Program-made: the position numbers and the translations under genes
From: Myxococcales bacterium
GTDB taxonomy: Bacteria; Myxococcota_A; UBA9160; UBA4427
Assembly (NCBI GenBank): GCA_012959865.1
Contig: DUCH01000132.1
Coordinates: 1 to 33,436 of the forward strand
Direction of reading: 5' to 3'
Length of the DNA: 33,436 nt
In this document: piece by piece, positions 1,381 through 32,638 of the stretch
Layout: each line of letters starts with the position of its first letter
Position numbering within the stretch: the first letter of the stretch is position 1
The notes under the pieces: generated by a model
Seen by the model: the letters and a program-made list of their open reading frames with translations, nothing else
What the model was told of the DNA's origin: nothing
Database searches by the model: none

Positions 1381-2328
1381 ATGAGCGAGCGTACCGAAGA
1401 GCAGGCGAGTCGAAAGGTCCCCGCCCTGGTGGTGTCCGGATTTCTGGGCTCGGGCAAGACCACTTTGATTCGGCGTCTCCTCGACGAGGCCATCCGCACG
1501 GGCGTCAGGGTAGCCCTGGTGTCCAACGAACTCGGCGCGTTGGGGATCGACCGGACTCTGCTCGGCCAGGGGGGCGAGGCCTACGTGGAGATCGAGGGCG
1601 GGTGCGTGTGCTGCGAGCTCTCCGACGACCTACTCGTCACCCTGCAAGACCTTTGGGAGAAAGTCAGACCCGATCGCGTGGTGATCGAGACCTCCGGCGT
1701 GGCGCTGCCCTTCGATACCCAACTGAATTTCTGGCGCGAGCCCGTCTGCCAGTGGATCGGCGACGACATGGCGGTGGTGGTCGCCAACGCCGAACAACTC
1801 GCGGAGGGCCGCGATCTCGACGGTACATTTTCCGACCAAATCACCAGCGCCGACCTCATCGTCCTGAACAAGGTGGACCTCGTGACCCCCCAAACCCTGG
1901 AGCTTGCCGAGAGTCGACTGCGGGAGATCGAACCCGAGGCGCCGGTTGTCCGGGCCCACCACGGCGACATCTCGCCCGACCTGCTCTTCCCCCCCGAGGC
2001 GCTCGCTGCCGGAGCGGGCCCGGACCGCAGCGGGGTAGCTCCGAAGGCGCGACCTCATAGCCACGAGCAGTTCGAGACCGAAATTTGGCAAGTCCCGCCC
2101 GGGCTCAGCAATGCCGAACTCGAGGCGCGACTTCGCCAGCCCGATTTGCTCCGGGCCAAGGGCTTCGCCCAAACCGTCTCGGGAATCCAACTCGTCCAGG
2201 TAGTCGGCCGGCGAGTCGAACTGCGCGAGGCTGACGGGACCGTCGACCCCTCACTGCTCAATCGCCTCGTTCTCATCCGACGCACCCCGGAGGTTGAACA
2301 CAAGGGGGTTGACGACAAAGGGGGTTAA
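1381..2328 (+). CDS. CobW/G3E-family GTPase (COG0523), putative metal chaperone
   Basis: A 315-residue SIMIBI-class GTPase of the COG0523 group, which delivers metals (zinc, cobalt, others) to client proteins in the cytoplasm. Visible motifs are Walker A GFLGSGKTT at residues 20-28, the group-specific metal site GCVCC at 74-78, the ETSG switch region near 103, and the guanine-specificity motif NKVD at 163-166. A His-containing linker and a CobW C-terminal domain follow. I chose the ATG at 1381; the in-frame TTG at 1318 would overlap the divergent gor start. Nothing nearby (no cob genes, no visible Zur box) identifies the metal. The last residues (GVDDKGG) and the TAA stop are encoded inside a 15-16-bp tandem repeat array that continues past the gene. 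Confidence 0.88.
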   Translation: MSERTEEQASRKVPALVVSGFLGSGKTTLIRRLLDEAIRTGVRVALVSNELGALGIDRTLLGQGGEAYVEIEGGCVCCELSDDLLVTLQDLWEKVRPDRVVIETSGVALPFDTQLNFWREPVCQWIGDDMAVVVANAEQLAEGRDLDGTFSDQITSADLIVLNKVDLVTPQTLELAESRLREIEPEAPVVRAHHGDISPDLLFPPEALAAGAGPDRSGVAPKARPHSHEQFETEIWQVPPGLSNAELEARLRQPDLLRAKGFAQTVSGIQLVQVVGRRVELREADGTVDPSLLNRLVLIRRTPEVEHKGVDDKGG

Positions 2329-2420
2329 CGACAAGGGGGGTTAACGACAAGCGGGTTAACAACAAGGCGGTTAACGACAAGGCGGTTGAACAAGGGGGCT
2401 GAGCAAGGGGGCTGAGCAGG
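2291..2420 (+). repeat. Tandem array of 15-16-bp units spanning the cobW-type gene stop
   Basis: Imperfect tandem repeats with a core like TTAACGACAAGGCGG. Clear units run 2309-2324, 2325-2340, 2341-2355, 2356-2370 and 2371-2385, followed by degenerate shorter units (TTGAACAAGGGGGC, TGAGCAAGGGGGC) to about 2420. A half-matching unit at 2291-2308 lies within the GTPase coding sequence. Central units contain the palindrome GTTAAC and so a TAA in frame with the GTPase, which ends at the first of these. The array lies between two convergent genes (GTPase and nth). I see no known element; it looks like a minisatellite-type expansion. Confidence 0.8.
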
Positions 2421-2447
2421 CGCGATGCGTCCGGGGAGACCGGACCC

Positions 2448-3197
2448 TTAGCGGACCTTTCGCCGGGCCGTCTTCTTTCGGACTGCCTTCTTCCGAACTG
2501 CCGCCTTCTTCCGAGCCGCCGCCTTGCGGGAACCCGGGCCGCCGCCCCCCGCCCGGGCCTCCTCGGCGATCCGACGCGCCGTCGCCGCCCACGAGCAGAT
2601 CGGACACGTTGTCAGATCGTGCCCCCGGGCGGGACAATGCTCCCGGCCGAAATAGATGAGCGCCAAGTGGAGCCACGACCAACTCGACTCGGGGAAAAGC
2701 ACTTTCAGGTTCCCCTCGGTTTGCTCCACCGTGCGTGCTTGAGACAGTCCCCAGCGCCCCGCCAGACGGTGAATGTGGGTGTCCACGGGAAAAGCCGGGC
2801 GACCAAAGGCTTGGGCGACCACAACGCTCGCGGTCTTGTGCCCCACCCCCGGTAGAGCCTCGAGGCTGGCAAAATCCTCGGGCACACGCCCCCCGTGCTC
2901 GTCCAAAATTATTTTTGAGAGCGCCGAAATATTCCGGGCCTTGCCGGGCGCGAGGCCACAGGTGCGGATCAGTGATTGAATTTTCGCCGTCTCGACCTTG
3001 GCCATTCTGTCCGGGGTTGAAGCCACGGCGAAGAGCCCGGGGGTCACCCGGTTGACCCGCTCGTCAGTGCATTGGGCCGAAAGAAGGACCGCGATGAGGA
3101 GCGTAAAGGGATCCCGGTGCACCAGAGGAACCGGCGGGGCAGGATAGAGTCCCTCGAGAATCGCCTGAATTCGCTGCGCCTTTTCAGCCCGCTTCAT
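2448..3197 (-). CDS. nth: Endonuclease III (DNA glycosylase/AP lyase) with basic C-terminal tail
   Basis: Base-excision repair glycosylase that removes oxidised pyrimidines and cleaves AP sites. The protein has 249 residues. The helix-hairpin-helix LPGVGHKTA (115-123) carries the catalytic lysine K121, and VDTHIHR carries the catalytic aspartate D139. The region around 188-201 has three cysteines as C-x9-C-x2-C, not the usual C-x6-C-x2-C-x5-C iron-sulfur loop; no fourth cysteine follows. Residues 217-249 form a Gly then Lys/Arg/Ala-rich tail (for example RKKAAVRKKAVRKK), resembling histone-H1-like DNA-binding tails. I chose the ATG at 3197 because the family begins there; an open extension to 3422 lacks family similarity and overlaps a plus-strand small ORF. 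Confidence 0.9.
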   Translation of the reverse strand: MKRAEKAQRIQAILEGLYPAPPVPLVHRDPFTLLIAVLLSAQCTDERVNRVTPGLFAVASTPDRMAKVETAKIQSLIRTCGLAPGKARNISALSKIILDEHGGRVPEDFASLEALPGVGHKTASVVVAQAFGRPAFPVDTHIHRLAGRWGLSQARTVEQTEGNLKVLFPESSWSWLHLALIYFGREHCPARGHDLTTCPICSWAATARRIAEEARAGGGGPGSRKAAARKKAAVRKKAVRKKTARRKVR

Positions 3198-3371
3198 GAT
3201 CGGCCCAGCATACACCACGGGGTCTGGACCCCGATGTCGAATCCTTTGCGCGACCCGAGGAGAAGCGCGTAGAATCAGCGAATCGCTCGCGCAAGGGAAT
3301 ACGCGTGGGTACCCACAAACCAACCGGCCCCCGAGAACCCGCGGAGGAAACATCCGAGTGACGGTTCGCCA

Positions 3372-3581
3372 ATGACTAAAAAAATGACGAAGAAAAATCC
3401 GAGACCCGGGGAGCGGGGGCAAGACCCCGCCGATAGCGATTCGACCGACAGCTCGTCGCCAGAAAGGCGCGAAGAGATCGGCCGCGCCGCGGCCGGGAAC
3501 GGACTGCGCTGGGCGATTCTTCTCTTTCTGGCCGGTGGACTTCTCTTGTTGATTTTCGGCGGGCCCTCGCCCCCCATCTGA
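3372..3581 (+). CDS. Small putative membrane protein, unknown function
   Basis: A 69-residue open frame that I do not recognise. It begins with a lysine-rich stretch (MTKKMTKKNPRPG), continues with an acidic/serine-rich segment, and ends with one strong hydrophobic helix of about 20 residues (roughly 46-64), giving a tail-anchored or single-pass topology with the charged part probably cytoplasmic. It sits in a gap between nth (-) and the PEP mutase-like gene (-), so it is not an obvious shadow of either. No good Shine-Dalgarno lies at normal distance; a GGAGG lies about 27 bases upstream of the first ATG, and the fifth codon is also an ATG. Existence as a gene is uncertain. Confidence 0.4.
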   Translation: MTKKMTKKNPRPGERGQDPADSDSTDSSSPERREEIGRAAAGNGLRWAILLFLAGGLLLLIFGGPSPPI

Positions 3582-3641
3582 GCAGACCCCGATCCGGCCG
3601 GGTCACGAGCGTCCACCGATTTGCGGGGCCCCTCACCACGC

Positions 3642-4502
3642 TCACTCGAACCGGTAGCGCGCCTGCTCCCGGTCGTATTCGGGGAAACCCACGATCTCGC
3701 GGAGTTCGGAAAAATCGAGAACCTCAGCCGGAGCCCGCCCAGCGGCCAACTCCGCGAGGGCGTGGTTCATCGCGCGCACCGCAGAGGAAAGCAGGGTCAA
3801 CGGATAGGCGGCGATCGTGTAGCCGAGGGATTCCAGGCGGTCAGGCGCGAGCAACGGCGTGTCGCCTTGCTCCACCATATTCGCCATTTTCGGTCCGGGA
3901 ATCTCCCGGCAGAGTCGCTCCATCTCAGCCTCGGAGAGCGGCGCTTCGAAAAAAGTAATGTCGGCTCCAAGGTCCGCAAAGGCCTTGCAACGCGCAAGGG
4001 CCTCGTCGAAGCCGTGGTCGTGGCGCGCGTCGGTGCGCGCCATCACCAAAATATCCGCGCCCTCCTCCCGGGCATCCACCGCAGCGCGCACCCGGGCCAT
4101 CGCTTCTTCCCGGGAGACCACGGCCTTGCCCCGGGTGTGACCACATCGCTTGGGGGCGAGCTGATCCTCGATCATCGCGCAGGCGAATCCCGCAGCCGCA
4201 TAACCACGCACCGTACGCTTTGCGTTGAGAGCGTTTCCATACCCGGTATCGGCGTCTCCAATAACGGGAAGTGAAACGGCCTCGCAAATACTCCGTCCCT
4301 GGTCGACCATTTCGCCGTACGAAATCAGCCCGGTATCGGGGAGAGCGAGACGGGCAGCACTCACCGCGAAACCGCTCATGAAGGTCAGCTCAAAACCGGC
4401 ACGCTCGATGAGCCGGGCCGAGAGCGCATCGAAACAACACGGCATTGTGTAAAAACGGCCAGCGCCGAGCAATTCCCGAAGTCGCTCCGAAGGCGTCGGC
4501 AT
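3642..4502 (-). CDS. Isocitrate lyase/PEP mutase family enzyme (2-methylisocitrate lyase-like)
   Basis: A 286-residue (beta/alpha)8 enzyme that cleaves or forms C-C or P-C bonds of small 2-hydroxy or phosphono acids in a Mg-dependent way. DADTGYGN at 83-90 is the metal/substrate loop of the superfamily, and KRCGH (118-122) matches the isocitrate lyase signature, with a candidate catalytic cysteine C120. That favours a lyase (methylisocitrate, dimethylmalate or oxaloacetate type) over a PEP mutase. I chose the ATG at 4502; a GAGGAGAGG stretch lies about 13-15 bases upstream. The open frame continues to 5264 but that part is antisense to tesB. No prp or phosphonate genes are adjacent, so the substrate stays open. 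Confidence 0.82.
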   Translation of the reverse strand: MPTPSERLRELLGAGRFYTMPCCFDALSARLIERAGFELTFMSGFAVSAARLALPDTGLISYGEMVDQGRSICEAVSLPVIGDADTGYGNALNAKRTVRGYAAAGFACAMIEDQLAPKRCGHTRGKAVVSREEAMARVRAAVDAREEGADILVMARTDARHDHGFDEALARCKAFADLGADITFFEAPLSEAEMERLCREIPGPKMANMVEQGDTPLLAPDRLESLGYTIAAYPLTLLSSAVRAMNHALAELAAGRAPAEVLDFSELREIVGFPEYDREQARYRFE

Positions 4503-4685
4503 CGTGGTTACTGCGCTCCTCTCCTCGATTTCGTGGCAATTGCCAGGGAGCTTCGGGCCCTGGGAAACGCCGAAATTGTAGCGGGCTGCGCGGCTCCTGG
4601 GAGTGAGAGTCGCCGCGGCCAGCGAATCCTTTATCATGCCGCCCCGGCGAAAATCCAGCGTCCCCCGACTCACAGGTGAACCGCT

Positions 4686-5537
4686 ATGCAGAAATCCCTC
4701 GACGATCTCGTGGCCATCCTCGACCTCGAGGAATTGGAGCTCAATCTCTTCCGTGGGCGCAGCCCTAAAGAAGAGCAGCAGAGAGTATTCGGCGGCCAGG
4801 TCGCCGGCCAAGCGCTGATCGCCGCGGGCCGAACCGTGAAGGACCGGCAGATCCACTCGCTCCACTCGTATTTTTTGCGCCCCGGAGACCCAAGAGTCCC
4901 CATCATCTACCAGGTGGATCGATTGCGCGATGGCCGGAGCTTCACCACCCGCCGGGTTACAGGAATCCAACACGGCCAGGCGATCTTCGCCCTCGCCGCC
5001 TCTTTCCAGGTCGATGAAGGCGGCGTCGAACACCAGGCCGAAATGCCCGCAGCGCCGCCGCCCGAGAGCCTCCCCGACTGGGAGGAACGCGTGGCCGCGA
5101 TGAAAGCCCGAGGCGAAACCGTCGACGAGTGGATGCACTGGGGCCGGGCCCTGGACACCCGCTACGTCGATGAGATGGACTACTCGGGCGAAATCGAACA
5201 AGAGCCCTTTTGGAGAGTCTGGCTGCGGGCCAAGGGGCAGCTTCCCGATAACCCTTTGCTTCACCGATGCGTGGCCACCTACGCCTCGGATATGACCCTG
5301 CTCGACACGGCCCTACGCCCGCACTCCTTGGCGATGGACGAAAACATGCAAGTGGCCAGCCTTGATCACGCCATGTGGTTCCATCGGCCCTTCCGCGCCG
5401 ACGAGTGGCTGCTCTACGCCCACGAGAGCCCCTCCATGTCCAATTCGAGGGGGTTCACAACGGCCCGGTTCTTCACCCAAGATGGAAAACTTGCAATTTC
5501 CGTGGCCCAGGAAGGGCTGCTTCGCGACCGCAGGTAG
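4686..5537 (+). CDS. tesB: Acyl-CoA thioesterase II
   Basis: Hydrolyses acyl-CoA to free fatty acid and CoA. The 283-residue length is normal for TesB, a double hot-dog protein. The first hot-dog contains VFGGQVAGQAL and the LHSYFLRPGD element (about 59-68). The second contains the active-site segment SLDHAMWFHRPFRADEW, with the catalytic aspartate in SLDH, and near the end a conserved Gln in SVAQEGLLR. The gene is divergent from the isocitrate-lyase-like gene, with 183 bp between starts, and convergent with the luciferase-like gene. A short GC stem (CCGCGC TCAA GCGCGG, 5568-5583) spans the junction with that neighbour's stop codon. It fits with the other acyl-CoA genes in the window but is not linked to them as an operon. 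Confidence 0.93.
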   Translation: MQKSLDDLVAILDLEELELNLFRGRSPKEEQQRVFGGQVAGQALIAAGRTVKDRQIHSLHSYFLRPGDPRVPIIYQVDRLRDGRSFTTRRVTGIQHGQAIFALAASFQVDEGGVEHQAEMPAAPPPESLPDWEERVAAMKARGETVDEWMHWGRALDTRYVDEMDYSGEIEQEPFWRVWLRAKGQLPDNPLLHRCVATYASDMTLLDTALRPHSLAMDENMQVASLDHAMWFHRPFRADEWLLYAHESPSMSNSRGFTTARFFTQDGKLAISVAQEGLLRDRR

Positions 5538-20947: not shown

Positions 20948-21775
20948 CTAGCGGCTTGCCGACTTCAGCGCGCGCTCGACGCTACCGTCACTTTCACTCA
21001 GCAGGTCTCGAGCGCGGGCGCGGTCAACGCCGGTTATTTCCATTACGATCCTCTCCGCGCGGCCGCGAAGTTTGTTGGAAACCGGTGTGACGTGGGTCAT
21101 GAAATTTCCGCGAACCTTGCCAAGCTTGACCATTACCGCGGTAGAGAGAGCAGCAAGAACCATTTTCTGGGCCAGACCGCCCTTCATGCGCGTCGAGCCG
21201 GCCACAACCTCGGGCCCGACTTCAGGGACGATGGCGATCTCGCCATATTCGGCCAGCAGCGAGTTTTCGTCGCACGTAATAGCAATGCTGCGAGCCCCTG
21301 CGCTCCGAGCTGCCTCCATGGCCCCGATCACAAAGGGGGTTCGGCCGCTGGCTGAAATCCCGACCACCACATCCCCTGCAGCCAACCCTCTCGCGCCCAA
21401 TTCGGAAGCCGCGGCACGCGGGTCGTCCTCGGCCCCCTCCACCGGATGACGAAGTGCCCGATCGCCCCCGGCGATTACCGCCTGTACGATCTGCGGACTC
21501 ATCCCATAGGTGGGCGGAATCTCGGAAGCATCAAGAACTCCAAGGCGACCGCTAGTACCTGCGCCCACATTGAACCACCGCCCGCCACCGGAAATTGCCG
21601 TGGCGAGCAATTCCACCGCCTCTTCCATCTCGGGAAGGCAACGACCTACAGCAGCATGCGCGCAAGCATCCTGCTGATGGATCAAGGTCAAAACTTCGCT
21701 TGTCGTGCGCCGGTCGAGATTGCGTGCAACCTCAAGAATCGCTTCTGTGGGGAGTTTTTCCGGCTTTTCTGACAT
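20948..21775 (-). CDS. murQ: N-acetylmuramic acid 6-phosphate etherase
   Basis: SIS-domain lyase of 275 residues that converts N-acetylmuramic acid 6-phosphate to GlcNAc 6-phosphate and lactate, a step of cell-wall sugar recycling or scavenging. Visible motifs are VGAGTSGRLGVLDASEIPPTYG (here: GAGTSGRLG then DASEIPPTYG, containing the catalytic glutamate), VEGAEDD with the second acidic residue, GISASGRTPFV (phosphosugar binding), and GSTRMKGGLAQK. AGGAAG lies 4 bases before the ATG. Slightly shorter than the E. coli enzyme at the C-terminus. No murP, anmK or mur regulator is adjacent; the nearest sugar genes are the glycosidases 4-8 kb away. Confidence 0.93.
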   Translation of the reverse strand: MSEKPEKLPTEAILEVARNLDRRTTSEVLTLIHQQDACAHAAVGRCLPEMEEAVELLATAISGGGRWFNVGAGTSGRLGVLDASEIPPTYGMSPQIVQAVIAGGDRALRHPVEGAEDDPRAAASELGARGLAAGDVVVGISASGRTPFVIGAMEAARSAGARSIAITCDENSLLAEYGEIAIVPEVGPEVVAGSTRMKGGLAQKMVLAALSTAVMVKLGKVRGNFMTHVTPVSNKLRGRAERIVMEITGVDRARARDLLSESDGSVERALKSASR

Positions 21776-21848
21776 GAATCTTCCTTCGGCTTGCCGACGG
21801 AAAAATTTGAGGCCAACCGCAACGCCGATGCATCGCTACACTGCCAGT

Positions 21849-24338
21849 ATGCCGTTTCGGGTCAGCCAGGAGACGCTCGAGGCGCTTGAATGGCCCCAGG
21901 TGGTCGAGCGTCTACGCGAAGAGTGCCGCACCGCTCAGGGCCATAAGTGGCTCACGGAGGCGGAAAAGAACACGACAGCGGAAACTTCTGCTGCCATGGA
22001 AACTCCTTCGCCGACGACCGCCCGTCGGCCCCTCGGCTCGGCTTTCCTTTTTGAACCGACCCTCGAAGGACTCCGAGCAAAACTCCAGGAAACCGACGAG
22101 GCTCGCGCGCTACTCGATGCCGAGCAAGCGCCGCCCCTGGGCGCCACCGCCGACCTCGCCGCCGCCCTCTCGCAGGCCGAAAAGGGCGGCGTGCTCGAGA
22201 TTGGACAACTCCTAGAGGTCCGCTCGACCCTCGAGACCCTACGCCAGACCGCCCGCTTTCTCGGCCGAAACGCCGAACAGGCCCCCCGTCTCGCGGAAAC
22301 ATCGGAGGCGGTTCAAGAACACCCAGAACTCGAAAAACAAATCGAGCGATGCATCGACCCAGCGGGTGAGGTGCGCGATCAAGCCTCGCCAGAACTGGCC
22401 ACTGCCCGACGAGAAGTTGTTCAGCTTGCAAACGAACTCCAGCAACGGCTTGAGCGCTACGTTCGAAACCCCGATGTCAGCAGGCATCTTTCGGATACTT
22501 ACTACACGATCCGCAACGACCGTTACGTACTGCCCGTGAAGGCTGACTTTCGAGGCAGGGTCAAGGGCATCGTTCACGACGCCTCTCGCTCGGGAACAAC
22601 CATATTTGTCGAGCCCGAAGCCGTCGTCGAGGTCAACAATCGCCTCAAACAGGCCGAACTCGCGATCAGCCGGGAGATCCACCGGGTCTTGCGACAGTTG
22701 TCGGGCCGAGTTTCGGAATCGGCGAGAGCGATTCGGAGCGGGCTGGATGCTCTGGCGCGGTTGGATCTTGCTTTCGCGCGCGGCCGGCTTTCCCAAAAAA
22801 TGGATGCAACTTCGCCCCAGGTGGATGATGGAGCAGTTTTCGAACTACCGGGCCTTCGTCATCCGCTCATCAGCAGCGATGAATGCGTGGCCAACGATCT
22901 TCGCCTCGGCGACGATTTTTCGGTTCTCGTCCTCTCGGGACCCAACGCCGGCGGCAAGACTGTCTCGATGAAGGCCGTTGGCTTGGCGGCGCTCTTCGTC
23001 CGAGCCGGTCTCCACGTACCGTGTGAAGCCGGTGCGCACGTCGATGCCATCGAGCATCTGCTGGCGGATATCGGTGACCACCAGGATATTGGCGAAAGTC
23101 TTTCGACTTTTTCGGCCCACATGGCGAATCTCGCCCGCATCGTCGACCAAGCCGGACCGCGCTCGCTGGTGGTGTTGGACGAAATCGGCGTGGGCACCGA
23201 CCCCGGGGAAGGCGCCGCCCTGGCCCAATCAATCCTTGAAATTCTGGCCAACCGCGGCGCCCGAGTCATCACCACCACTCACTACAACCTCCTCAAGGAG
23301 ATGGCCGACGTCGATCCCCGATTTCAAAACGCCAGCGTCGAATTCGATCCCACCAGCCTCGCCCCCACCTACCGGATCCAACTCGGGGTTCCGGGCGTAT
23401 CCTCGGCCTCGGCGGTTGCAGCCCGCATGGGAATGCCGACTGAGGTGCTAGAGAGGGCCAACTCGTTGCTTGAACGCGACGATCGCAAGCTCGAAAAAAT
23501 GCTCAGCGAACTGGCCACAAGCCGGGCCGCCCTCGCGAGTGAAAAAGATCAAGCCGAACTGATTCGGGCCGAGAGCGAAACTGTGCGCGATGAGTACCGG
23601 GCCAAACTCGAACGCCTCCAGGAGCGTCGGGACGAACTTTTTCTCAATATGCGGACCGACCTCGATCTCGCGTTCAAGCAAGCCCACGCCGAAGTCGCTG
23701 GAGTTATTCGGGACCTCCAGCGAGGCCCTTCATCCCAGAGGGCCGCCGAGGCGCGGAACCAACTCCAGAGCCTCAAGGAAGAGACGCAGCGGTCTCAGGA
23801 CGAAAAAGGCATCACGGCGCCAACTCGGCCTAGGGGACTTCAACCAGTGGATTGGCAGCGGGCGCGAGCCGGGGACGCCATCCTGATCGCGCCACGAAAC
23901 ATCGGTACCCTCGAGAGCCTTCCCGACCGCAAGGGCCGAGTTGGCGTCCGCATCGGCGGGAAAAGACTGGTGGTCGCCGCAGAACTCGTGGGGAGCGTTG
24001 AACCCGAGGAAGCCCCCCCTTCTTCCCAGATCAATCCCGTTCGCGTGCGCATCGAGAGGGCCGAGCCCCAAAAAGATGACGAGGGTTTCGACGGTGGCAC
24101 CCTCACGTGCGACTTGCGGGGCGAGCGCGTCGAGCAGGCCCTCGATCTTCTCGCCGACGCCCTCGATCGAGCGGTGGTCGATGACTGCCTCGGCGTTCGA
24201 ATCATTCACGGCATCGGGACCGGGGCGCTGAGGAGCGCTGTGCGGGATTTTCTGAGGGACAGTCCCAACGTGGGTCGCTTTCGGCCAGCAGATCGAGACG
24301 CCGGCGGCGAAGGCGTCACGCTCGTCGAGTTTGCATAG
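21849..24338 (+). CDS. mutS2: Endonuclease MutS2
   Basis: MutS-family ATPase of 829 residues with C-terminal Smr nuclease domain; roles described for the family include suppression of recombination and ribosome-collision rescue. Walker A GPNAGGKT is at 364-371, STFSAHM near 419, Walker B VVLDEIGVGTDP at 441-452 and the THYN switch later. A coiled region with many Glu/Arg residues follows. The Smr domain at the end has TCDLRGERVEQAL and IIHGIGTGALR. Residues about 41-60 are an unusual Thr/Ala/Pro-rich insertion in the N-terminal domain. I chose the ATG at 21849; an ATG at 21828 and a frame to 21705 also exist. The stop TAG is the beginning of a 14-bp repeat array. Confidence 0.92.
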   Translation: MPFRVSQETLEALEWPQVVERLREECRTAQGHKWLTEAEKNTTAETSAAMETPSPTTARRPLGSAFLFEPTLEGLRAKLQETDEARALLDAEQAPPLGATADLAAALSQAEKGGVLEIGQLLEVRSTLETLRQTARFLGRNAEQAPRLAETSEAVQEHPELEKQIERCIDPAGEVRDQASPELATARREVVQLANELQQRLERYVRNPDVSRHLSDTYYTIRNDRYVLPVKADFRGRVKGIVHDASRSGTTIFVEPEAVVEVNNRLKQAELAISREIHRVLRQLSGRVSESARAIRSGLDALARLDLAFARGRLSQKMDATSPQVDDGAVFELPGLRHPLISSDECVANDLRLGDDFSVLVLSGPNAGGKTVSMKAVGLAALFVRAGLHVPCEAGAHVDAIEHLLADIGDHQDIGESLSTFSAHMANLARIVDQAGPRSLVVLDEIGVGTDPGEGAALAQSILEILANRGARVITTTHYNLLKEMADVDPRFQNASVEFDPTSLAPTYRIQLGVPGVSSASAVAARMGMPTEVLERANSLLERDDRKLEKMLSELATSRAALASEKDQAELIRAESETVRDEYRAKLERLQERRDELFLNMRTDLDLAFKQAHAEVAGVIRDLQRGPSSQRAAEARNQLQSLKEETQRSQDEKGITAPTRPRGLQPVDWQRARAGDAILIAPRNIGTLESLPDRKGRVGVRIGGKRLVVAAELVGSVEPEEAPPSSQINPVRVRIERAEPQKDDEGFDGGTLTCDLRGERVEQALDLLADALDRAVVDDCLGVRIIHGIGTGALRSAVRDFLRDSPNVGRFRPADRDAGGEGVTLVEFA

Positions 24339-24404
24339 TCACGTGAATATGGTCACGTGAATATAGTCACGTGAATCTAGTTACGTGAACCTAGTCACGT
24401 GAAC
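24335..24404. repeat. Five 14-bp tandem repeats, each with a CACGTG palindrome, joining two gene ends
   Basis: Units 24335-24348, 24349-24362, 24363-24376, 24377-24390 and 24391-24404 follow the consensus ATAGTCACGTGAAT. Units 1-3 and 5 contain the 8-bp palindrome TCACGTGA; unit 4 has TTACGTGA. The TAG of unit 1 is the mutS2 stop, and the CTA of unit 5 read on the other strand is the stop of the FAD oxidoreductase. All of the 52-bp intergenic spacer is made of repeat. Confidence 0.9.
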
Positions 24405-25740
24405 CGGGGTTCGCTCCGGAAACGTCGGCGATCAAGTCGGCCGCCGCCCTGAATCCCGAAACGACTCGGCCTTCGACGCTCGGTGAGATCAAATAGTCAC
24501 CGGCAAAATAGAGCCTTCGGCCCAGGGAACGCCGATCCTCTTGGACTCGACGAAAGCGCTCAAGGCCCCGGTATGCGCCCACTTCGAAGGCGGGGATACC
24601 GGCCTCGCTTCGATGAAGCTCAGCGCTCGCAACGCTGCCCACGAACGCGGGATAGAGAAGCTTAAGATCCGCGAGTAAGCTCTTGACCGCGACATCGTCG
24701 GACATCTGGGCAGCACTCCGGGAGAAATCTTCCCGGGCCCGAACTGTCGCGAGTCCAGCCCCTGAGGCCATCCGACTCCCGGATGAACCCGGTTCGAAAA
24801 CGATGCTCTGCGCCGCAAAGCCTTCACCGTGAGGAATACGCACGCGCTCGGGCATGCCGCTCGGTGCCCGATCCAATTCGACAGTTAGAGTCAGTGTCGG
24901 GCGCTCACGCGCACCGGTGAGAAAGTCGCGCTCAGCGGGTTCCAGCACCGATGCGCCCAGCCGGGCCGCTTCGCCGGGGGAAGTCGCCACCACCACCGCG
25001 TCGCCGTGGAGAACATCGTCCGAAACGGCCGAGCCCGCGCATGTGATTTCATAGCCCTCTTGTCCGCCGCCCCCGTCGAGTCTCAGCGCGACGCCGTGGT
25101 GCCGTGTTGAAATGGCCCGATTTGCCGCGCGAAAGAGCGGGGCGAGACCCAGGCGCGGCAACCCGGAATAAGCGATTTCCTGACGACCGGTCATCCGCGT
25201 CCGCCAAAGGAGCAGGGCCGTCACCCTGGACAGTTCCGCTGCGCGGCCGGAATAAAAATCCTCGACCTCCGGCGCCACCCACTGCTGGAGAACGCTCTCC
25301 CCAAAATACAATCCCGCAAAATCCGAAACACTGCGGTAGTCGAGAGCCGCGGCGCGCTCGGGCGCCGCGGGATCCAGCAGGGGTAAATAGCGTGCCATCA
25401 AGCGCGACCAGCGCAACAGCCGAGCCGCATGGAGTTTCCGAACACCGGGAATCGCCGAAATTCCGAGCAAATGTTGCGGATCGATGGCCGCCGTTTTCCC
25501 GTGCCTCACCTGGGCGATTTGAACCGGCCGAAGTGGCAAGAGACTTTCGGACAGACCCAGTTCGCGCATCCAGCCGATCACATGGTCGTCGCTTGAGTGA
25601 AGAGTCTCCACCGAACGAAAGGGAGCGTTGCCGTCGGCTTGGTCTTTCTGCTCGATGAGCGCCACACGGTGGCCAGCCTGGCGAAGGCGCCATGCAGCCG
25701 CCAGACCCGAAAGACCCGCTCCGATGACCAGAACATTCAT
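24391..25740 (-). CDS. FAD-dependent oxidoreductase, protoporphyrinogen-oxidase/amine-oxidase-like
   Basis: A 449-residue flavoprotein with the N-terminal dinucleotide motif VLVIGAGLSGLAAAWRL and a C-terminal FAD-binding segment RLYFAGDYLISPSVEGRVVSGFRAA, as in protoporphyrinogen oxidase, phytoene desaturase and amine oxidases. The usual Gly-Gly-Arg motif after the first beta-alpha-beta unit is absent (the sequence there is EQKDQADGNAPFRSVETLH), so substrate handling may differ from HemG/HemY. No hem genes are adjacent. It starts 90 bp downstream of the GH36-HAD gene on the same strand and may be co-transcribed; a weak stem (GCCCG/CGGGC, 25799-25815) lies between. Its final codons and stop come from the 14-bp repeat array. 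Confidence 0.75.
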   Translation of the reverse strand: MNVLVIGAGLSGLAAAWRLRQAGHRVALIEQKDQADGNAPFRSVETLHSSDDHVIGWMRELGLSESLLPLRPVQIAQVRHGKTAAIDPQHLLGISAIPGVRKLHAARLLRWSRLMARYLPLLDPAAPERAAALDYRSVSDFAGLYFGESVLQQWVAPEVEDFYSGRAAELSRVTALLLWRTRMTGRQEIAYSGLPRLGLAPLFRAANRAISTRHHGVALRLDGGGGQEGYEITCAGSAVSDDVLHGDAVVVATSPGEAARLGASVLEPAERDFLTGARERPTLTLTVELDRAPSGMPERVRIPHGEGFAAQSIVFEPGSSGSRMASGAGLATVRAREDFSRSAAQMSDDVAVKSLLADLKLLYPAFVGSVASAELHRSEAGIPAFEVGAYRGLERFRRVQEDRRSLGRRLYFAGDYLISPSVEGRVVSGFRAAADLIADVSGANPGSRD

Positions 25741-25830: not shown

Positions 25831-28449
25831 CTAAGCGAGGTGTTGCGCGAGGTATTTTCGGACTCGGTGGAGATCTTCAAAGGGCTGGTAGTGGACGCCT
25901 CTCGCACGAAGAGCCTCTCCGAGTGTTCCTTTCGCGAAAACCAGGTCAGCCGCCTCAGCACCGCAGAGATCAGAAACCCGACCGTCTCCTATATGAATAC
26001 AATAAGCCCCCGGATGGTCTCTGCGATAGGCCTCGATGATTGCTCGCTTACAGGTCCCAGTTTCGCATCCGCAGTCGGGGTTCGGACCTCCAGGCGTAAT
26101 TCGCCAGCGATCGTTTTCAAAGACCAGATGATTGGCCGAATAGGAAAAGGCAACACCGTGAATCGCCCGAAGCCGCTTCAAATTATAGTCGAAGCCATCC
26201 GAAAGAATTCGAAATGGGATGCCCTGACCTTCGCACCACGCCACGAGCGAGGACGCGCCCGGATCCAATTCGATACCCACTAGAAAGGCATCGAGCTTGC
26301 TGGAAGAAAAAGCGAACCCTTCGAAGAGCTCCAGCTGATAATCCCAGGCTCCTAGTTCTCCTCGTTCGTAGCGCCTTTGGAGTCCAGAGCGCAGTTCGGG
26401 CAGAAATTCCTGGGCTAGGGAAGCACCCACATCGCGTGTGGAGAACGTTCCGTCGAAGTCGCAGAAGACGGCGGGGTCACGAGACCCGGGCGCATGAACG
26501 ATCGCACTCCCATGCGCGTCCAGCTGGAAAGCGCGGGCTTCAGACTCGATTTGTTTTGAAGACGTTGCGGGGTCGAGCCCGTTCGACGAAGCGCCGGCCG
26601 AGTAAAAGAGCGAGTCCGCAGGGAAGGGCCGACGGGAAACCTCGTCAGCCAAGTTGACTGCTCCCAACCACATGTCCCTGCCCGCCCGGGATTCCACGAG
26701 GCAGGGTCCGTCCGCGTCCTGGGGCCAGGCAACCCGTGTGGTGCCACGGTCGCCGCCCGCATCGATCCGGGAAGCCAGCTTGACCACATCGGAAATGACT
26801 GCTCGCTCGTTCGACTTCAATAAGGGAACGTCATCTGAGAAAACGACCATTCCTCCAGAGAGCGCGACTCCCGAGGCGAGGCTCCCTGCTTCGGTTTGCG
26901 ACAGCGAAGTTTCTCGACTTCGGGCCATCAAACAATCGGGATCATTCAACCAGAGTCGGCGATGGAGAAACTGACGGGCAAAAGTGCTCCGCAATGCCGT
27001 GCGGGTTGAGGGCATCATTTCCTCGAGTCCCGGGATTACCACCGGTTGATTCACCGTCCAGGAGGGAGCCACATCGGGACCGATTCGCATTCCGTCTACA
27101 ACTCCCACCGCCGGACCTAACGGACAGCCACAACCGAGCAGGAACGCTTCCTCACCTGCGCCGCGACGAATCGCCTCGAGTCCGCTCCGCAGTCGCTCGG
27201 CTCGGGTCAGGGAGGCATCGGCAGCACGGCCCGACATAGCTGGCATGAAGAGGAAATCGAGCTTGAGGTAATCGAACCCCATGGCGACGAGCGCGGCGAA
27301 AGTTTCTTCCAGATGCTGCCGCACCTCTGCTTGGCTCGGGTCGAGGACATACACCCATCCATCTCGACTCCACGCTGGATTGTAGGTCCCGCGCAGCGCG
27401 GAGTCTCCATGCTGAAGAGTCCAATGGGGATGCAGGCTGAGAACTCGGCTCTCGGCTGAAGCCGCAAAGGGGGCGGTCCAGATCCCAGCGCGAAACCCCG
27501 CATCGCGAATCATCCCACCCAGCCTCGCCAAGCCTGTAGGAAATCGGGAACTCGGTTCGAGCCAGTCGCCCATAGCCGCCTGAAATCCATCGTCGAGTTG
27601 CACCACCTCCACGGGAATCCCGCTGGTATCCGCTGCCAATGCCTCGAGGTTGCGCACCAGATCCTGCTCGGAAACATCGTGGAAGAACTGATACCAACTG
27701 CACCAGCCCGCCTGAAAACGATTCTCTCGCCGCGCCCCGGCCACCGTTCCCCACAGTTCGGCGAAGCGTTCGAGCAGAGAATTTGCTTCTGATCCGAGAG
27801 CCACACGCACGCCCTCGAGTTCCCGGGTTTCACCCGGCTCAAGCATCACCTCGAGTCGAATCTCCAAATCGACAGCCACTGGGCGGCCCGCCGGGCTCCG
27901 CGCCCCGGGCCGCATCCTGACGACCCCGAAGGCCCGCCCAGTCTCCAAGACCCCGACAAGGCAGAAGGGACCCGCCACCATCCCGCCCACAAGGGTTAAA
28001 ATTTCAGACTCATGCCAACCCGGTCTCGACTCGGGCTGGCAGTGGTACATCCCCCGGAGCCAGGGGCCCGACGGAAAGTCCTTTTCCCCGTCGTTGCTCA
28101 AAGAGCGGACGCCTGTCGGCGACCAGGACTGCCAGCCATGGCGCAGGAAACGAAGATCTTGGTGGCCATGACCCTGGAATACCAGACCGAACTCGACGCT
28201 CTCCACATAAATCGGTCGGGCGCTTCGGTTCCGAAGAGTTCCGTACACCGTAGCGGCGGTTTTGTGATCTTCCCGGCGAATAGCGAGTTCGAGATCCCCG
28301 CCGGAAAACTTCCGTGTCCCGCTTCCGAAGTCGTCATCGCGTGAATCGGTCACGGTTTCGCCGCCGCGCAGGTAGCGAACGACTATCCGCACCGGATCAA
28401 TATTCGACCCGGTTTCTTCTTTCCGCAATTGAGCCAGGGGTTGTGCCAT
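25831..28449 (-). CDS. Fusion: GH36-type alpha-galactosidase domain plus MtnX-like HAD phosphatase
   Basis: An 872-residue two-part protein. Residues about 1-650 form a clan GH-D alpha-glycosidase: a beta-sandwich N-terminal domain, then a barrel with WCSWYQFF (249-256), VVQLDDGF, the nucleophile D398 in YLKLDFLF, and a probable acid/base D459 in MRIGPDVAPSW after GCGCPLGP. Residues about 655-872 form a HAD phosphatase closest to the MtnX/HAD-IB group: motif I CDFDGT (D664, D666), motif II ILSDGF, GCETGTCKR with the motif III lysine, and motif IV IGDGRVSD. All key residues of both domains look present. No signal peptide, so probably cytoplasmic. The ATG at 28449 has GGAG directly before it, unusually close; a TTG two codons earlier is possible. 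Divergent from the GH20 gene; FAD gene follows. Substrate unknown. Confidence 0.85.
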   Translation of the reverse strand: MAQPLAQLRKEETGSNIDPVRIVVRYLRGGETVTDSRDDDFGSGTRKFSGGDLELAIRREDHKTAATVYGTLRNRSARPIYVESVEFGLVFQGHGHQDLRFLRHGWQSWSPTGVRSLSNDGEKDFPSGPWLRGMYHCQPESRPGWHESEILTLVGGMVAGPFCLVGVLETGRAFGVVRMRPGARSPAGRPVAVDLEIRLEVMLEPGETRELEGVRVALGSEANSLLERFAELWGTVAGARRENRFQAGWCSWYQFFHDVSEQDLVRNLEALAADTSGIPVEVVQLDDGFQAAMGDWLEPSSRFPTGLARLGGMIRDAGFRAGIWTAPFAASAESRVLSLHPHWTLQHGDSALRGTYNPAWSRDGWVYVLDPSQAEVRQHLEETFAALVAMGFDYLKLDFLFMPAMSGRAADASLTRAERLRSGLEAIRRGAGEEAFLLGCGCPLGPAVGVVDGMRIGPDVAPSWTVNQPVVIPGLEEMMPSTRTALRSTFARQFLHRRLWLNDPDCLMARSRETSLSQTEAGSLASGVALSGGMVVFSDDVPLLKSNERAVISDVVKLASRIDAGGDRGTTRVAWPQDADGPCLVESRAGRDMWLGAVNLADEVSRRPFPADSLFYSAGASSNGLDPATSSKQIESEARAFQLDAHGSAIVHAPGSRDPAVFCDFDGTFSTRDVGASLAQEFLPELRSGLQRRYERGELGAWDYQLELFEGFAFSSSKLDAFLVGIELDPGASSLVAWCEGQGIPFRILSDGFDYNLKRLRAIHGVAFSYSANHLVFENDRWRITPGGPNPDCGCETGTCKRAIIEAYRRDHPGAYCIHIGDGRVSDLCGAEAADLVFAKGTLGEALRARGVHYQPFEDLHRVRKYLAQHLA

Positions 28450-28618
28450 CTCCAAAACCTATAGCGAGGCAGAGCGCAAGCCGCGCCGATGGCCGAAGGG
28501 ACCCGCGTGGCACGGCACGGCTTCGGCCGCGACCGCCGGGAAAACCGGCGGAGCGTATCCCCAGCAAGATCTCCACCAAGATCCCCACAAGAGCGCGTGT
28601 CCAAGAACGCCAAAGTCG

Positions 28619-28651
28619 GACAAATTGTGTCGCCTCCACGCAAATTGTGTC
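28619..28651 (+). promoter_or_regulatory. Paired upstream activator-like sites
   Basis: CAAATTGTGTC occurs at 28621-28631 and again at 28641-28651, exactly 20 bp apart (about two helical turns). The first copy sits in an imperfect dyad GACA-N5-TGTC (28619-28631). They lie about 120-150 bases upstream of the -24 element, the usual place for binding sites of a sigma-54 enhancer-binding protein. Confidence 0.55.
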
Positions 28652-28770
28652 ACTTCGGCAAGCGAAGCTGCCCGAGCGTTGCCCTCGGGCTGCACAGCCA
28701 TTCAGCAAGATTCTAAAAAAAACTCTTTAATTTCAAATCCTTACATACGTTCTCATTAATAGGGACAAGA

Positions 28771-28787
28771 GTGGCACGCCACTTGCT
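28771..28787 (+). promoter_or_regulatory. Consensus sigma-54 (-24/-12) promoter for the GH20 gene
   Basis: GTGGCACGCCACTTGCT matches TGGCACG-N4-TTGCT at every defined base; GG (28773-28774) and GC (28785-28786) are 10 bases apart. An A/T-rich tract lies just upstream, compatible with bending between activator and polymerase. Transcription should start near 28797, about 240 bases before the preferred GH20 start. Confidence 0.8.
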
Positions 28788-29040
28788 CTATGAGTCCTCT
28801 GTAAACGCGGGCCTCTTCGAGTGAAGCATCCCCCGGATATTGAAGGTCTGGCGCCCGAGCGGGCTACCCCTCCCTTCGCACTTTGTGCAAGGAGCTTGCT
28901 CGGGCGCTTATTCGCGTCCGCGGGTGGGCGCAGCCTGGCCCCGATCGTCGTCGGCCACCCTGGCTACCGGCCTCGCTGCTCCTCGCCCTCGCCGCCGCCA
29001 CAGCGGCAGCAGACGAGAGGGTCCGGGGTATAGTTCGACC

Positions 29041-31083
29041 ATGCAAGGTCCACCTGGCAAATCCGACCGTCGGTACTCCTTGCCCCCGATTCTCCCCGAG
29101 CCGCGTTGCAGCCGACGCGAGGCCGGCAGCTTCAAAATTACTCCCGGCGTTCGGCTCCAGCTCAGCCCCGAGGCCCACAAGTCGGAGCGCGCTACAGCAC
29201 GCCGCTTGCAAGCGGGTATCGAGGGCGTTATCCAAACCCGCCCCCGCGTCACAAGCACTCTCGTTCAGAATGACGAACTCCCTCAAATTCATCTGGCCAT
29301 CGAGGCGAGTCCTCCTCCCATGGACTCCAGCGACAAACCCCTCGCCCGCCGAGCACCGGGCCTAGAAAACACCCGCGGCATACAGCACGACGCCTATCGG
29401 CTGACGGTGACGCCCAAGCGGGTGGAAATTTTCGGGACCGGACCGGCGGCGCTTCGTTACGGAGTCGAAACGCTGCTCCAACTCATCGGCCCAGGCGGCC
29501 GAATTCCCTGTTGCTGGGTCGAAGACAGTGCAGACCTTCGGCTACGAGGTCTCATGCTCGACATTTCTCGGGGCAAGGTTCCCACTCGGCAGAGTCTCGA
29601 AGACCTGATCGACACCTGTGTTGCCCTCAAATTGAATGTCCTCATGCTGTATACCGAGCATACTTTCCGCTTCAAAAAACACCCGCGGATAGGCCAGCAA
29701 GATAGTCCCCTGACTGCCCGGACTCTTGCGGCCCTTGACGCCTATGCGGCCGAACGCTTTGTGGATTTGATTCCCTGTCTGCAATCCCTTGGTCACATGG
29801 AGCACATCCTGAAACTCCCGCTCTATAGCGACATGGCCGAAACCGAGAGCGCTTGGACAATCGCCCCCAATCACCCGCGATGCCTGCCCTTCCTCAAAGA
29901 TCTATACGACGAATACCTGCCCCTGTTTCGCTCGAGTTGGTTCAATGCGAATTGCGATGAGCCCTGGGATCTGGGTCGCGGCCTCTCGGCGAAGCGAAGC
30001 GAAGCCCTCGGCCCCGGTGGTCTCTATCTCGAACACGTCCATAACATCCAACGTTTGGCCGCCCGTCACGGGAAACGTATGATGATCTGGGGCGATGTCG
30101 TACACGCCCACCCGCATCGAATTCCCGAAATTGACCCAAATCTGGTCTTGCTCGATTGGTGGTACGAAGCAGATTTTGATTTCGATCGAGTCAAGGTGTT
30201 CGCGCAGAACCACATCGATTTTCTGGTCTGTGCAGGAACTTCCAGCTGGAACTCGCTCTTCCCAAGGGTCGCGAACAGCCTGGCGAACATCTCCGGCTGG
30301 GCAGACGCCGGGCGAAGGCACGGCGCGTTGGGCCTTCTGAATACCGATTGGGGCGATCACGGGCACTACAATCTCGAAGGAAATTCCCTCATGGCGTACG
30401 CCTGGGGGGCGCAAGAAGCTTGGTCGGGAGCCTCCAGGCCAAGCGACTTTGATCGCGGATTTTCACGACTCTTCTTCGACGACGCCAAGGGTGAGGCCGC
30501 ACGAATTTACCGAAGCCTTGGCGCGATTCACGACACGGGATTCAAGGCTTTCAACGGCTCGCCCCTCCAATACCTTTTCTTCGACAGCGTAGATAGCGCC
30601 TACTTCATCGGCGCCTGTCGACCTGCCCGCTTGATTTCCGTTCAGAAACGATTGGCACGCTTGAAGCCGCGAATAGAAGCGGCCCGCCTGAGCGCGACTT
30701 GCGGGCTTCAGCACCTCGATGAGATTCTATACGCCGCAGATGCATCGGCGTTTGCGGCCCGAAAGGCCGAGACCGGACTCGAATACCTCTCTTGGCGAAG
30801 GAAGCCCTCCAGCCTGAAAGCCTCCGGTCGCCGGAAACTGGCGAGGACCCTCGCGGCTCTCGCGACGGAACAGATCGCGCTTGGGCGCCGACTTCGAAAA
30901 CTCTGGCTCAAGCGCGCTCAGCCTTCCAATCTCGACCAAACCCTCAAGCGCCTTCGACGCTCCGCTCGACACCTGAGGGCCGCCGGGAAGCGACTGGAGA
31001 CCAATCGCCCGACGCCCGAACCCGAACGGAAGAAGATCTCCGTTCAAGGCGTTCTTCAGGCGGTTCGCGAGAGCCAGGGTTAG
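29041..31083 (+). CDS. Glycoside hydrolase family 20-type beta-N-acetylhexosaminidase
   Basis: A protein of 680 residues from the preferred ATG. An N-terminal zincin-like GH20b domain begins at YSLPPILPEPR and contains the RYGVETLLQLI motif (about 139-149). The barrel domain starts with LRGLMLDISRGKVP. The catalytic Asp-Glu pair is D306-E307 in NCDEPWDLG, replacing the more common GGDE form; MIWGDV, CAGTSSWNS and LLNTDWGDHGHYN are conserved blocks of this GH20 branch. The C-terminal 120 residues are Arg/Lys-rich and helical. The expected reaction is release of terminal N-acetylhexosamine. The frame extends to a TTG at 28840 with no family similarity. No signal peptide in this frame, though one-frame-off sequence upstream resembles one. 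Driven by the sigma-54 promoter upstream. Confidence 0.8.
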   Translation: MQGPPGKSDRRYSLPPILPEPRCSRREAGSFKITPGVRLQLSPEAHKSERATARRLQAGIEGVIQTRPRVTSTLVQNDELPQIHLAIEASPPPMDSSDKPLARRAPGLENTRGIQHDAYRLTVTPKRVEIFGTGPAALRYGVETLLQLIGPGGRIPCCWVEDSADLRLRGLMLDISRGKVPTRQSLEDLIDTCVALKLNVLMLYTEHTFRFKKHPRIGQQDSPLTARTLAALDAYAAERFVDLIPCLQSLGHMEHILKLPLYSDMAETESAWTIAPNHPRCLPFLKDLYDEYLPLFRSSWFNANCDEPWDLGRGLSAKRSEALGPGGLYLEHVHNIQRLAARHGKRMMIWGDVVHAHPHRIPEIDPNLVLLDWWYEADFDFDRVKVFAQNHIDFLVCAGTSSWNSLFPRVANSLANISGWADAGRRHGALGLLNTDWGDHGHYNLEGNSLMAYAWGAQEAWSGASRPSDFDRGFSRLFFDDAKGEAARIYRSLGAIHDTGFKAFNGSPLQYLFFDSVDSAYFIGACRPARLISVQKRLARLKPRIEAARLSATCGLQHLDEILYAADASAFAARKAETGLEYLSWRRKPSSLKASGRRKLARTLAALATEQIALGRRLRKLWLKRAQPSNLDQTLKRLRRSARHLRAAGKRLETNRPTPEPERKKISVQGVLQAVRESQG

Positions 31084-31126: not shown

Positions 31127-32506
31127 TCAATCCGGGCTCGCCCCACTTTCCTTTCCTAAGACGCGACGGGCGATGCCAGCCAGATACACCGAGCCGGTAC
31201 AACAAAGCAGATCATCCTCGCCGAGCCCGGCGCGGGCGGCGAATACCGCTTCGCTGGGGTCGTCGAGCAGGTTGACCTCGCATTCTGGCGCGATTCGACT
31301 GGCCAGAGAAGCCAATGCAGCGGGCTCCATGGAACGCTTGGGGTCGGCACGGGTGACCCAGACTGCATCCACGCCCCGAAGCAATTCGGTGACAATCGCC
31401 TCCGAAGACTTGCTGCGCGAAATCGAGAGCGCGAGGTGACGACGTCTTGCCGGAATCGCATCCATGACCTCGCGAACGGACGCCGCAGACTTCGGAGTAT
31501 GCGCTGAATCCACCAGAATCCAGGGCTTTCGCGCGATCAATTCAAGCCGTCCGGGCAGCGAGGCCTGTACGAGGCCACGGCGCGCACCCTCGGCAAGTTT
31601 TGCGTCGCTCCAGCATCCCAATCGGCGCAGAGCCGCCACAGCGATCGATGCGTTGTCAATCTGGTGTCTTCCCCGAACGCCGAGGCCGGCAGCGACTTCG
31701 AAACCATCAGATTCCCGATACACAAAGGCCTGCACGGCATCGTCAGGGATCCCGTAGAGGCCCCATTCAGAAGGCTTCAACATCTCCGACTGTGCGTCCT
31801 CCCCAAGACGAAAGAGCGGAGCCCCCACCGCATTCGCTTGGCCGATTACTGCAGACCGAGCCTCTTCGGCGAGGGGACCCATAATGCAGGGTACGCCCGG
31901 CTTGATGATTCCGGCCTTTTCGCTTGCGACTTCGGCAAGGGTATTCCCAAGCTTTTCGGTGTGTTCAAGTTCAATCTGGGTGATACATGTCACCCGGGGT
32001 AGCACGGCGTTCGTAGAATCTAACCGCCCGCCGAGCCCAACCTCCAGAAGAACTCTGGACACCTGGGCTTGGGCAAAGAGGAGCAGCGCTGTGGCGGTAG
32101 TCGCGTCGAAAAAGGTGGGCGCATTTTTGGGGTCCTCATCTTTAAGCGCCTCTACATGTGGCCGTATGCGCTCCACCGCCTCGGCGAGGAGATCATCGTT
32201 GATCGCTAGGCCATCAATCCGGAAACGCTCGCTCCAGGTCTCGAGATGCGGCGAAGTAAAGGTCCCCACTCGCTCGCCCCCAGCGATCAGAATCGCTTCG
32301 GCGAGAAGACAAGTAGACCCTTTTCCCTTTGAGCCGGCGACATGAATTATCGAGAGGCTCGCTTCGGGATTCTCCAATCTTGCCAGCAGGCGACGAATCG
32401 GTCCCAGGTCCAACCGCGCATTCGCGTAACTCGAACCTCTCTCGAAGTTGATCAAATTCTCGAGCCATCGGCTTGCCTCGTGGACGTCGGAAATTTTCGC
32501 ACTCAA
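31127..32506 (-). CDS. folC: Bifunctional folylpolyglutamate synthase/dihydrofolate synthase
   Basis: Mur-ligase-family ATP-dependent enzyme that adds glutamate to dihydropteroate and folates. The P-loop is AGSKGKGST, followed by FTSPHLETWSERFRIDG with the flexible loop. Later motifs are FDATTATALLLFA, VGLGGRLDSTNA, LEHTEKLGNTLAEVASEKAGIIK (shown here in two known blocks, LEHTEKLG and SEKAGI) and the C-terminal domain's VDSAHTPKSA. The open frame reaches 32614, but that part runs into a hairpin at 32585-32608, so I prefer the TTG at 32506, with GGGGAA 9 bases upstream, giving 459 residues beginning MSAKISDVHEASRWLE. It is the last gene of a minus-strand cluster. Confidence 0.88.
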   Translation of the reverse strand: MSAKISDVHEASRWLENLINFERGSSYANARLDLGPIRRLLARLENPEASLSIIHVAGSKGKGSTCLLAEAILIAGGERVGTFTSPHLETWSERFRIDGLAINDDLLAEAVERIRPHVEALKDEDPKNAPTFFDATTATALLLFAQAQVSRVLLEVGLGGRLDSTNAVLPRVTCITQIELEHTEKLGNTLAEVASEKAGIIKPGVPCIMGPLAEEARSAVIGQANAVGAPLFRLGEDAQSEMLKPSEWGLYGIPDDAVQAFVYRESDGFEVAAGLGVRGRHQIDNASIAVAALRRLGCWSDAKLAEGARRGLVQASLPGRLELIARKPWILVDSAHTPKSAASVREVMDAIPARRRHLALSISRSKSSEAIVTELLRGVDAVWVTRADPKRSMEPAALASLASRIAPECEVNLLDDPSEAVFAARAGLGEDDLLCCTGSVYLAGIARRVLGKESGASPD

Positions 32507-32584
32507 TATCGCGAATTCCCCATTTGGCCCCTTGGGCGATCGACCGATCAATCGCGTAGTCGGGTAATTGCGTACAATCGAAAG

Positions 32585-32608
32585 AAGGCGGCCCAAGTGG
32601 GCCGCCTT
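32585..32608 (-). terminator. Perfect 10-bp stem hairpin between the zinc-ribbon gene and folC
   Basis: AAGGCGGCCC (32585-32594) pairs fully with GGGCCGCCTT (32599-32608) around a 4-base loop. It begins about 30 bases after the zinc-ribbon gene stop on the minus strand. The following bases (CTTTCGATTG) give only a weak U-run, so it may be a terminator, an attenuator or a 3'-end stabiliser. Confidence 0.5.
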
Positions 32609-32638
32609 CAGCAACAGTCGATCCTGCCCAGACTCTCG

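Follow-up and report, generated by a model that had tools for sequence, protein, structure and literature searches.

The locus analysed here raises the question of what a single polypeptide may do with a glycosidase at one end and a phosphatase at the other. A sequence-only reading of the window, that is, of the whole stretch of 33,436 nucleotides from a Myxococcales bacterium, had described an apparently complete GH36-type alpha-glycosidase fused to a complete MtnX-like HAD phosphatase, and had suggested that both act on one substrate carrying an alpha-glycosidic bond as well as a phosphate. The data presented below confirm the fusion and support this interpretation only in part, leaving the shared substrate unsupported.

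Architecture of the fusion protein

The reading frame is uninterrupted over 874 or 872 amino acids, depending on the start codon, with its stop at 25831; the ATG at 28449 is where the sequence-only reading had placed the end of the gene. The protein is divided as follows.

25831..28455, minus strand: GH36-HAD fusion ORF, 874 aa from the TTG at 28455, 872 aa from the ATG at 28449
27715..28434, minus strand: GH36 N-terminal beta-sandwich domain, approximately residues 8-247 (predicted secondary structure and Foldseek match to TmGalA, TMt 0.87)
26776..27714, minus strand: GH36 catalytic (beta/alpha)8 barrel, approximately residues 248-560 (PDB match, alignment of fusions, Foldseek), with D401 in the nucleophile-type and D462 in the acid/base-type position and D289/D290, W327, C443 and R458 in the sugar site
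26575..26775, minus strand: GH36 C-terminal beta domain, approximately residues 561-627 (AlphaFold2 prediction)
26491..26574, minus strand: linker, residues 628-655, of which 628-635 are of low confidence and the remainder is ordered (AlphaFold2)
25834..26490, minus strand: HAD-IB phosphatase domain, residues 656-874 (profile, PDB and structure matches), with D667/D669, S753, K804, D825/D830 and the cluster C796/C798/C803

The GH36 part scores 45.6 bits against the Pfam Melibiase profile PF02065 (cut-off 27), and its best PDB match is the alpha-galactosidase of Thermotoga maritima, 1zy9 (residues 224-560, E 1e-71), with whose catalytic and sugar-binding positions the KLDFLF (D401), RIGPD (D462) and DD (D289/D290) motifs are aligned. 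The HAD part scores 38.7 bits against PF12710 (cut-off 27), matches Bacillus subtilis MtnX (2fea) with an E-value of 2e-15 in the PDB sequence search and contains the HAD-IB signature residues: DFDGT (D667, D669) as the DxDGT of motif I, the Ser of motif II in SDG (S753), the Lys of motif III in CK (K804) and the acids of motif IV in GDGxxxD (D825, D830). Structure prediction returned the two anticipated folds. From an input alignment of 39 sequences AlphaFold2 gave a pLDDT of 91.3 and a pTM of 0.92 for the whole chain, pLDDT falling below 50 only at the first seven residues and at 628-635. The model has the three-part GH36 architecture of beta-sandwich, (beta/alpha)8 barrel and C-terminal beta domain, followed by a HAD-IB fold with a helical C1 cap, for which 2fea is the best Foldseek match and phosphoserine phosphatases come next. 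The profile and PDB matches together with this model bear out the claim that one polypeptide holds both enzymes complete with their catalytic residues. The high pTM further suggests that the domains are held in a defined, fixed mutual arrangement. No signal peptide is apparent at the N-terminus when the sequence is judged by eye.

The active sites are well preserved. Among the aligned fusions D401 is kept in 37 of 37, D462 in 36 and D289/D290 in 35, while D667, D669, S753, K804 and D830 of the HAD are invariant in all 69 sequences, fused and unfused. The first Asp of motif IV, D825 (approximately 25981-25983), is Asn in 64 of the 69 relatives irrespective of fusion. As far as these residues tell, both halves of the window protein look functional.

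The closest known systems share parts of this design. The GalA enzymes of T. maritima and Thermus (1zy9, 5m0x, 6lcj) have the fold of the GH36 part (TMt 0.87, 29% identity) and the same catalytic and minus-one sugar residues; they are, however, free-standing, with measured alpha-galactosidase activity and no phosphatase, whereas the fusion carries the HAD. AgaSK of Ruminococcus gnavus (2yfn; PMC7688924) resembles the fusion in that a GH36 is followed by a phosphate-handling enzyme in the same chain, but its C-terminal domain is a sucrose kinase rather than a HAD phosphatase, which places the window protein outside the AgaSK type. The AgaSK GH36 is only distantly similar to ours (13% identity in the fold match), and AgaSK belongs to a raffinose locus of gut Firmicutes with known substrates. 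In the green algal HAD-glycerol-3-phosphate dehydrogenase (6iuy; PMC7468427) a HAD-IB phosphatase is likewise fused to another metabolic enzyme; there, in contrast, the partner is a dehydrogenase, the two steps are consecutive, and the similarity of the HAD to that of the window is only remote. A literature search, whose coverage did not extend to subscription papers, found no description of a GH36-HAD fusion; the sequence-only reading had likewise known of none.

Distribution and authenticity of the fusion

When 84,980 species genomes were scanned with patterns derived from close relatives, about 28 loci with both domains were detected, every one in a MAG labelled as Deltaproteobacteria, Myxococcota, Proteobacteria or an unclassified bacterium. 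Among the public relatives, the MAG UBA9160 (L006) has the fusion in a single ORF. The class of the window comprised 91 genomes, 80 of them belonging to its order, within which every detailed match was re-examined. Both domains lie in one ORF in 40 of these 80, the GH36 is cut by a contig end in two, the HAD occurs without the GH36 in 29, one case was undetermined and eight genomes have neither domain. The 40 one-ORF fusions are spread across most families of the order. Outside the order no fusion was present among the matches listed from 379 genomes of the phylum, matches that cover the GH36 part only. As far as searched, the fusion is limited to one order of mostly uncultured myxobacteria-like bacteria.

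The source assembly is fragmented (553 contigs), and one might suspect that an artefact of assembly or annotation had merged two genes. The probability of this is practically nil. The same kind of single ORF recurs in 40 independent genomes from many projects, and this, with the purifying selection acting on both domains, refutes an assembly join. It also answers the reservation, raised with the original description, that homologues might always be split or that the join might be an in-frame artefact. Selection was estimated against G057, the nearest relative with the fusion, which is of the same genus; the pN/pS values were 0.29 for the GH36 N-domain, 0.17 for the barrel, 0.24 for the C-domain and 0.26 for the HAD, these being rough figures with dS near saturation. 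By these ratios both domains are under purifying selection in the genus of the window.

The locus and its neighbours

The genes surrounding the fusion in the window are the following.

20948..21775, minus strand: MurQ-like N-acetylmuramic acid 6-phosphate etherase, a syntenic marker
21705..24338, plus strand: MutS2, a syntenic marker beside fused and unfused genes
24391..25740, minus strand: FAD amine-oxidase family protein, directly downstream of the fusion with 90 bp between them; no other gene stays beside the HAD as constantly
28840..31083, plus strand: GH20 hexosaminidase-family protein, a divergent neighbour
31127..32614, minus strand: FolC, a syntenic marker

Fused and unfused genes share a common order, namely FolC, in some cases an MFS gene, GH20 (reversed), homocysteine S-methyltransferase (reversed), the HAD with or without the GH36, FAD amine oxidase, MutS2 (reversed) and MurQ. 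In the 29 genomes of the order with an unfused HAD, the gene occupies the identical syntenic place and has the same invariant residues as in the fused form. The amine oxidase stands beside the HAD in 51 of the 53 loci with enough sequence; the common strand and the 90 bp gap make co-transcription of the fusion with the amine oxidase likely. Given that the HAD is kept alone at this place, it is the core gene; paired with the FAD amine oxidase it would form the ancient, conserved part of the locus, which belongs to the HAD rather than to the GH36. No transporter, synthase or glycan pathway specific to the fused members was found at the locus, nor is the GH20 gene specific to them (16/26 fused versus 10/25 unfused, p 0.16).

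Within the order MurQ (20948-21775) and GH20 (28840-31083) are long-term neighbours of the locus, both with and without the fusion, and a link of these neighbours to cell-wall sugar recycling is conceivable. About 170 bp upstream of the fusion start, the minus strand carries the direct repeats GTGACACAATTTG and GCGACACAATTTG, 20 bp apart (28621-28653), which could be a regulator site. Elsewhere in the window (3642-5264) there is a 540 aa ORF of the PEP mutase/isocitrate lyase family, whose N-terminal approximately 260 residues have no Pfam match and whose true start may lie further in.

Identity of the phosphatase

The term "MtnX-like" used in the sequence-only reading holds at the level of fold and superfamily only. 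MtnX of B. subtilis (2fea) and the TIGR01489 group share with the window HAD the HAD-IB fold, motifs I-III and the C..CK element, but identity to MtnX is 26-28%, the score against the MtnX-like subfamily profile (TIGR01489) is 70.2 bits, below the cut-off of 81.55, and the two MtnX equivalog profiles gave 63.2 and 73.9 bits against cut-offs of 303.2 and 292, respectively. Where the window protein keeps the first Asp of motif IV, most members of this group carry Asn.

It could still be argued that we are dealing with a genuine MtnX acting in methionine salvage, since by both sequence and fold no solved structure comes closer to the HAD than MtnX, and since the homocysteine S-methyltransferase gene, in most relatives the divergent neighbour of the HAD, would belong to the same sulphur pathway. 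We regard this as very improbable. Besides the equivalog scores, which fall far short of cut-offs near 300, the partners of methionine salvage are missing: MtnW exceeds its cut-off in none of the 91 class genomes and MtnB in two, and neither does so in the genome of the window. The weak MtnB matches in the class are presumably class II aldolase relatives. The methyltransferase gene itself is absent from the window locus (28450-28840), its copy lying on contig C448 of the genome. Together the equivalog scores and the missing MtnW and MtnB rule MtnX out as a working assignment and leave it strongly disfavoured.

Two other candidate clues were considered and dropped. A role of the HAD as a stand-in for SerB was suggested by SerB exceeding its cut-off in only 10 of the 91 genomes, yet genomes lacking the HAD are without SerB too. 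HAD relatives with 30-34% identity were observed in two Zixiibacteriota MAGs (L057:4917-9185 and L058) near a myo-inositol-1-phosphate synthase gene; this synthase is present in 76 of the 91 class genomes and is uninformative as a clue. The same two loci also lie near an S41 peptidase and a nucleotidyltransferase-phosphomannomutase fusion.

One fusion and probable repeated loss

Set against eight other GH36 proteins, the GH36 domains of the fusions group together in a single clade (support 100), from which we conclude that there was one fusion event; the branching of the clade roughly tracks the taxonomic families. The HAD tree intermingles fused with unfused forms, with 13 changes, and in the tree of five concatenated genes (HAD, amine oxidase, MutS2, MurQ and FolC) the well-supported branches force ten gain or loss changes. 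The trees alone cannot orient these changes; most are taken as losses because the GH36 tree appears vertical. On this ground we infer that the GH36 half was lost repeatedly, with loss prevailing over gain as the main direction, while a few secondary gains of GH36 via recombination are possible. The deepest lineages, f3 and G086, are unfused and weakly placed, and the fusion possibly arose after their divergence. Within the genus of the window, three relatives (G058-G060) have the HAD alone.

The 29 stretches upstream of the unfused HADs contained one weak GH36 match, possibly a remnant (L139, E 0.008), and no GH36 in the others; nor did these 29 genomes have another match of the fused-type GH36, nearby or elsewhere. 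The reverse arrangement, a GH36 without the HAD, was never found within the fusion clade, save for genes cut by contig ends. Functional coupling would also predict such an asymmetry, which 5' truncation may explain. Outside the order, in the same class, a stand-alone GH36 relative with 40% identity adjoins a fused trehalose-phosphate synthase/phosphatase gene, the two lying at 1920-4118 and 4706-7081 of L159; the neighbours scanned for the other stand-alone GH36 genes (L158, L160 and L161) included no such gene.

Two fusions have an eroded GH36 beside an intact HAD: D289H/D290E in G043 (L121) and D289G/D290G/D462P in G032 (L126). Both have long GH36 branches beside ordinary HAD branches, the GH36 branch of G032 being 2.17 against a median of 0.32. 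They are apparent intermediates of GH36 domain loss. This erosion, and the dispensability of the GH36 in general, would also be expected if the GH36 served the phosphatase chiefly as a scaffold or regulatory appendage and were not an active enzyme. Such a role is, however, quite unlikely, with the catalytic and sugar-site residues kept in 35-37 of the 37 aligned members and the barrel being the most conserved part of the window protein in comparison with its nearest relative.

Proposed function

The reading that we prefer, and hold to be reasonably probable, is that of a bifunctional protein with two separate active sites, whose parts were fused once, catalyse separable reactions and were repeatedly parted by deletion of the GH36. 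The protein would probably be cytoplasmic. Its N-terminal approximately 630 residues would form a retaining alpha-galactosidase-type GH36 that hydrolyses a small alpha-galactoside by double displacement, with D401 as the nucleophile and D462 as the acid/base; conservation of the TmGalA minus-one site makes galactose the likeliest sugar. The C-terminal approximately 215 residues would act as a HAD-IB phosphatase removing the phosphate from a small metabolite via an aspartyl-phosphate on D667, with the participation of D669, S753, K804, D830 and Mg2+. The GH36 gene would have been joined in front of the HAD once, in or near the ancestor of the order, and deleted repeatedly thereafter.

As the HAD persists alone, the GH36 reaction cannot be the sole source of its substrate, and the many losses of the GH36 with the HAD being kept imply that the two halves probably do separable jobs. 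Most likely the fusion would serve to co-express two such reactions rather than to channel one substrate. In AgaSK, separating the GH36 from the kinase leaves the kinetics of both domains unchanged (PMC7688924); by this precedent a GH36 and a phosphate-handling domain may be fused and yet stay kinetically independent.

The sequence-only reading had favoured sequential action of the two domains on a single phosphorylated alpha-galactoside, galactosyl-glycerol phosphate being one example. In favour of this are the fusion itself, the conserved sugar site of a galactosidase and the predicted rigidity of the arrangement, a possible sign of functional coupling, and galactokinase, a candidate partner of the GH36, is commoner in fused genomes (29/40 versus 12/28, Fisher p 0.023). 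The galactokinase link, however, comes down to three independent pairs and vanishes after tree correction, so that galactokinase was rejected as a partner; no synthase, transporter or glycan pathway accompanies the fusion; and the HAD stands alone in 29 genomes in the same neighbourhood and with the same invariant residues. A single doubly marked substrate is accordingly unlikely.

A two-step metabolism of one small molecule, in a joint pathway where the HAD acts first, is possible. The HAD could strip the phosphate from a phosphorylated glycosyl solute, for instance galactosyl-glycerol, and the GH36 could later degrade the solute thus freed, the unfused genomes making it without recycling. 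This would explain why the HAD survives without the GH36 and never the reverse, and another HAD-IB domain, fused to glycerol-3-phosphate dehydrogenase, makes glycerol in algae (6iuy; PMC7468427). The asymmetry is, however, equally explained by simple 5' truncation, no glycosyl-phosphate synthase was found at the locus, and the floridoside literature offered no link to the GH36-HAD locus. The solute-phosphate phosphatases known for such a role fall into other HAD subfamilies. We find this scheme rather unlikely. A slim but appreciable chance may be given to the broader idea of a dedicated two-step enzyme in an undescribed pathway of the order, in which a galactosyl metabolite, for instance a galactosyl-glycerol solute, would be released by the phosphatase and recycled by the galactosidase, or vice versa, the amine oxidase performing a further step.

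Returning to the preferred reading of a bifunctional protein with separable reactions, the locus is a caution that a domain fusion is not proof of a shared pathway. Its natural history looks clear: one fusion and later repeated loss of one half, with half-decayed intermediates included. GH36-HAD joins two well-known enzyme folds in an undescribed combination that has been kept across a whole bacterial order, and the lineage-specific unit of phosphatase and amine oxidase is a target for expression and assay.
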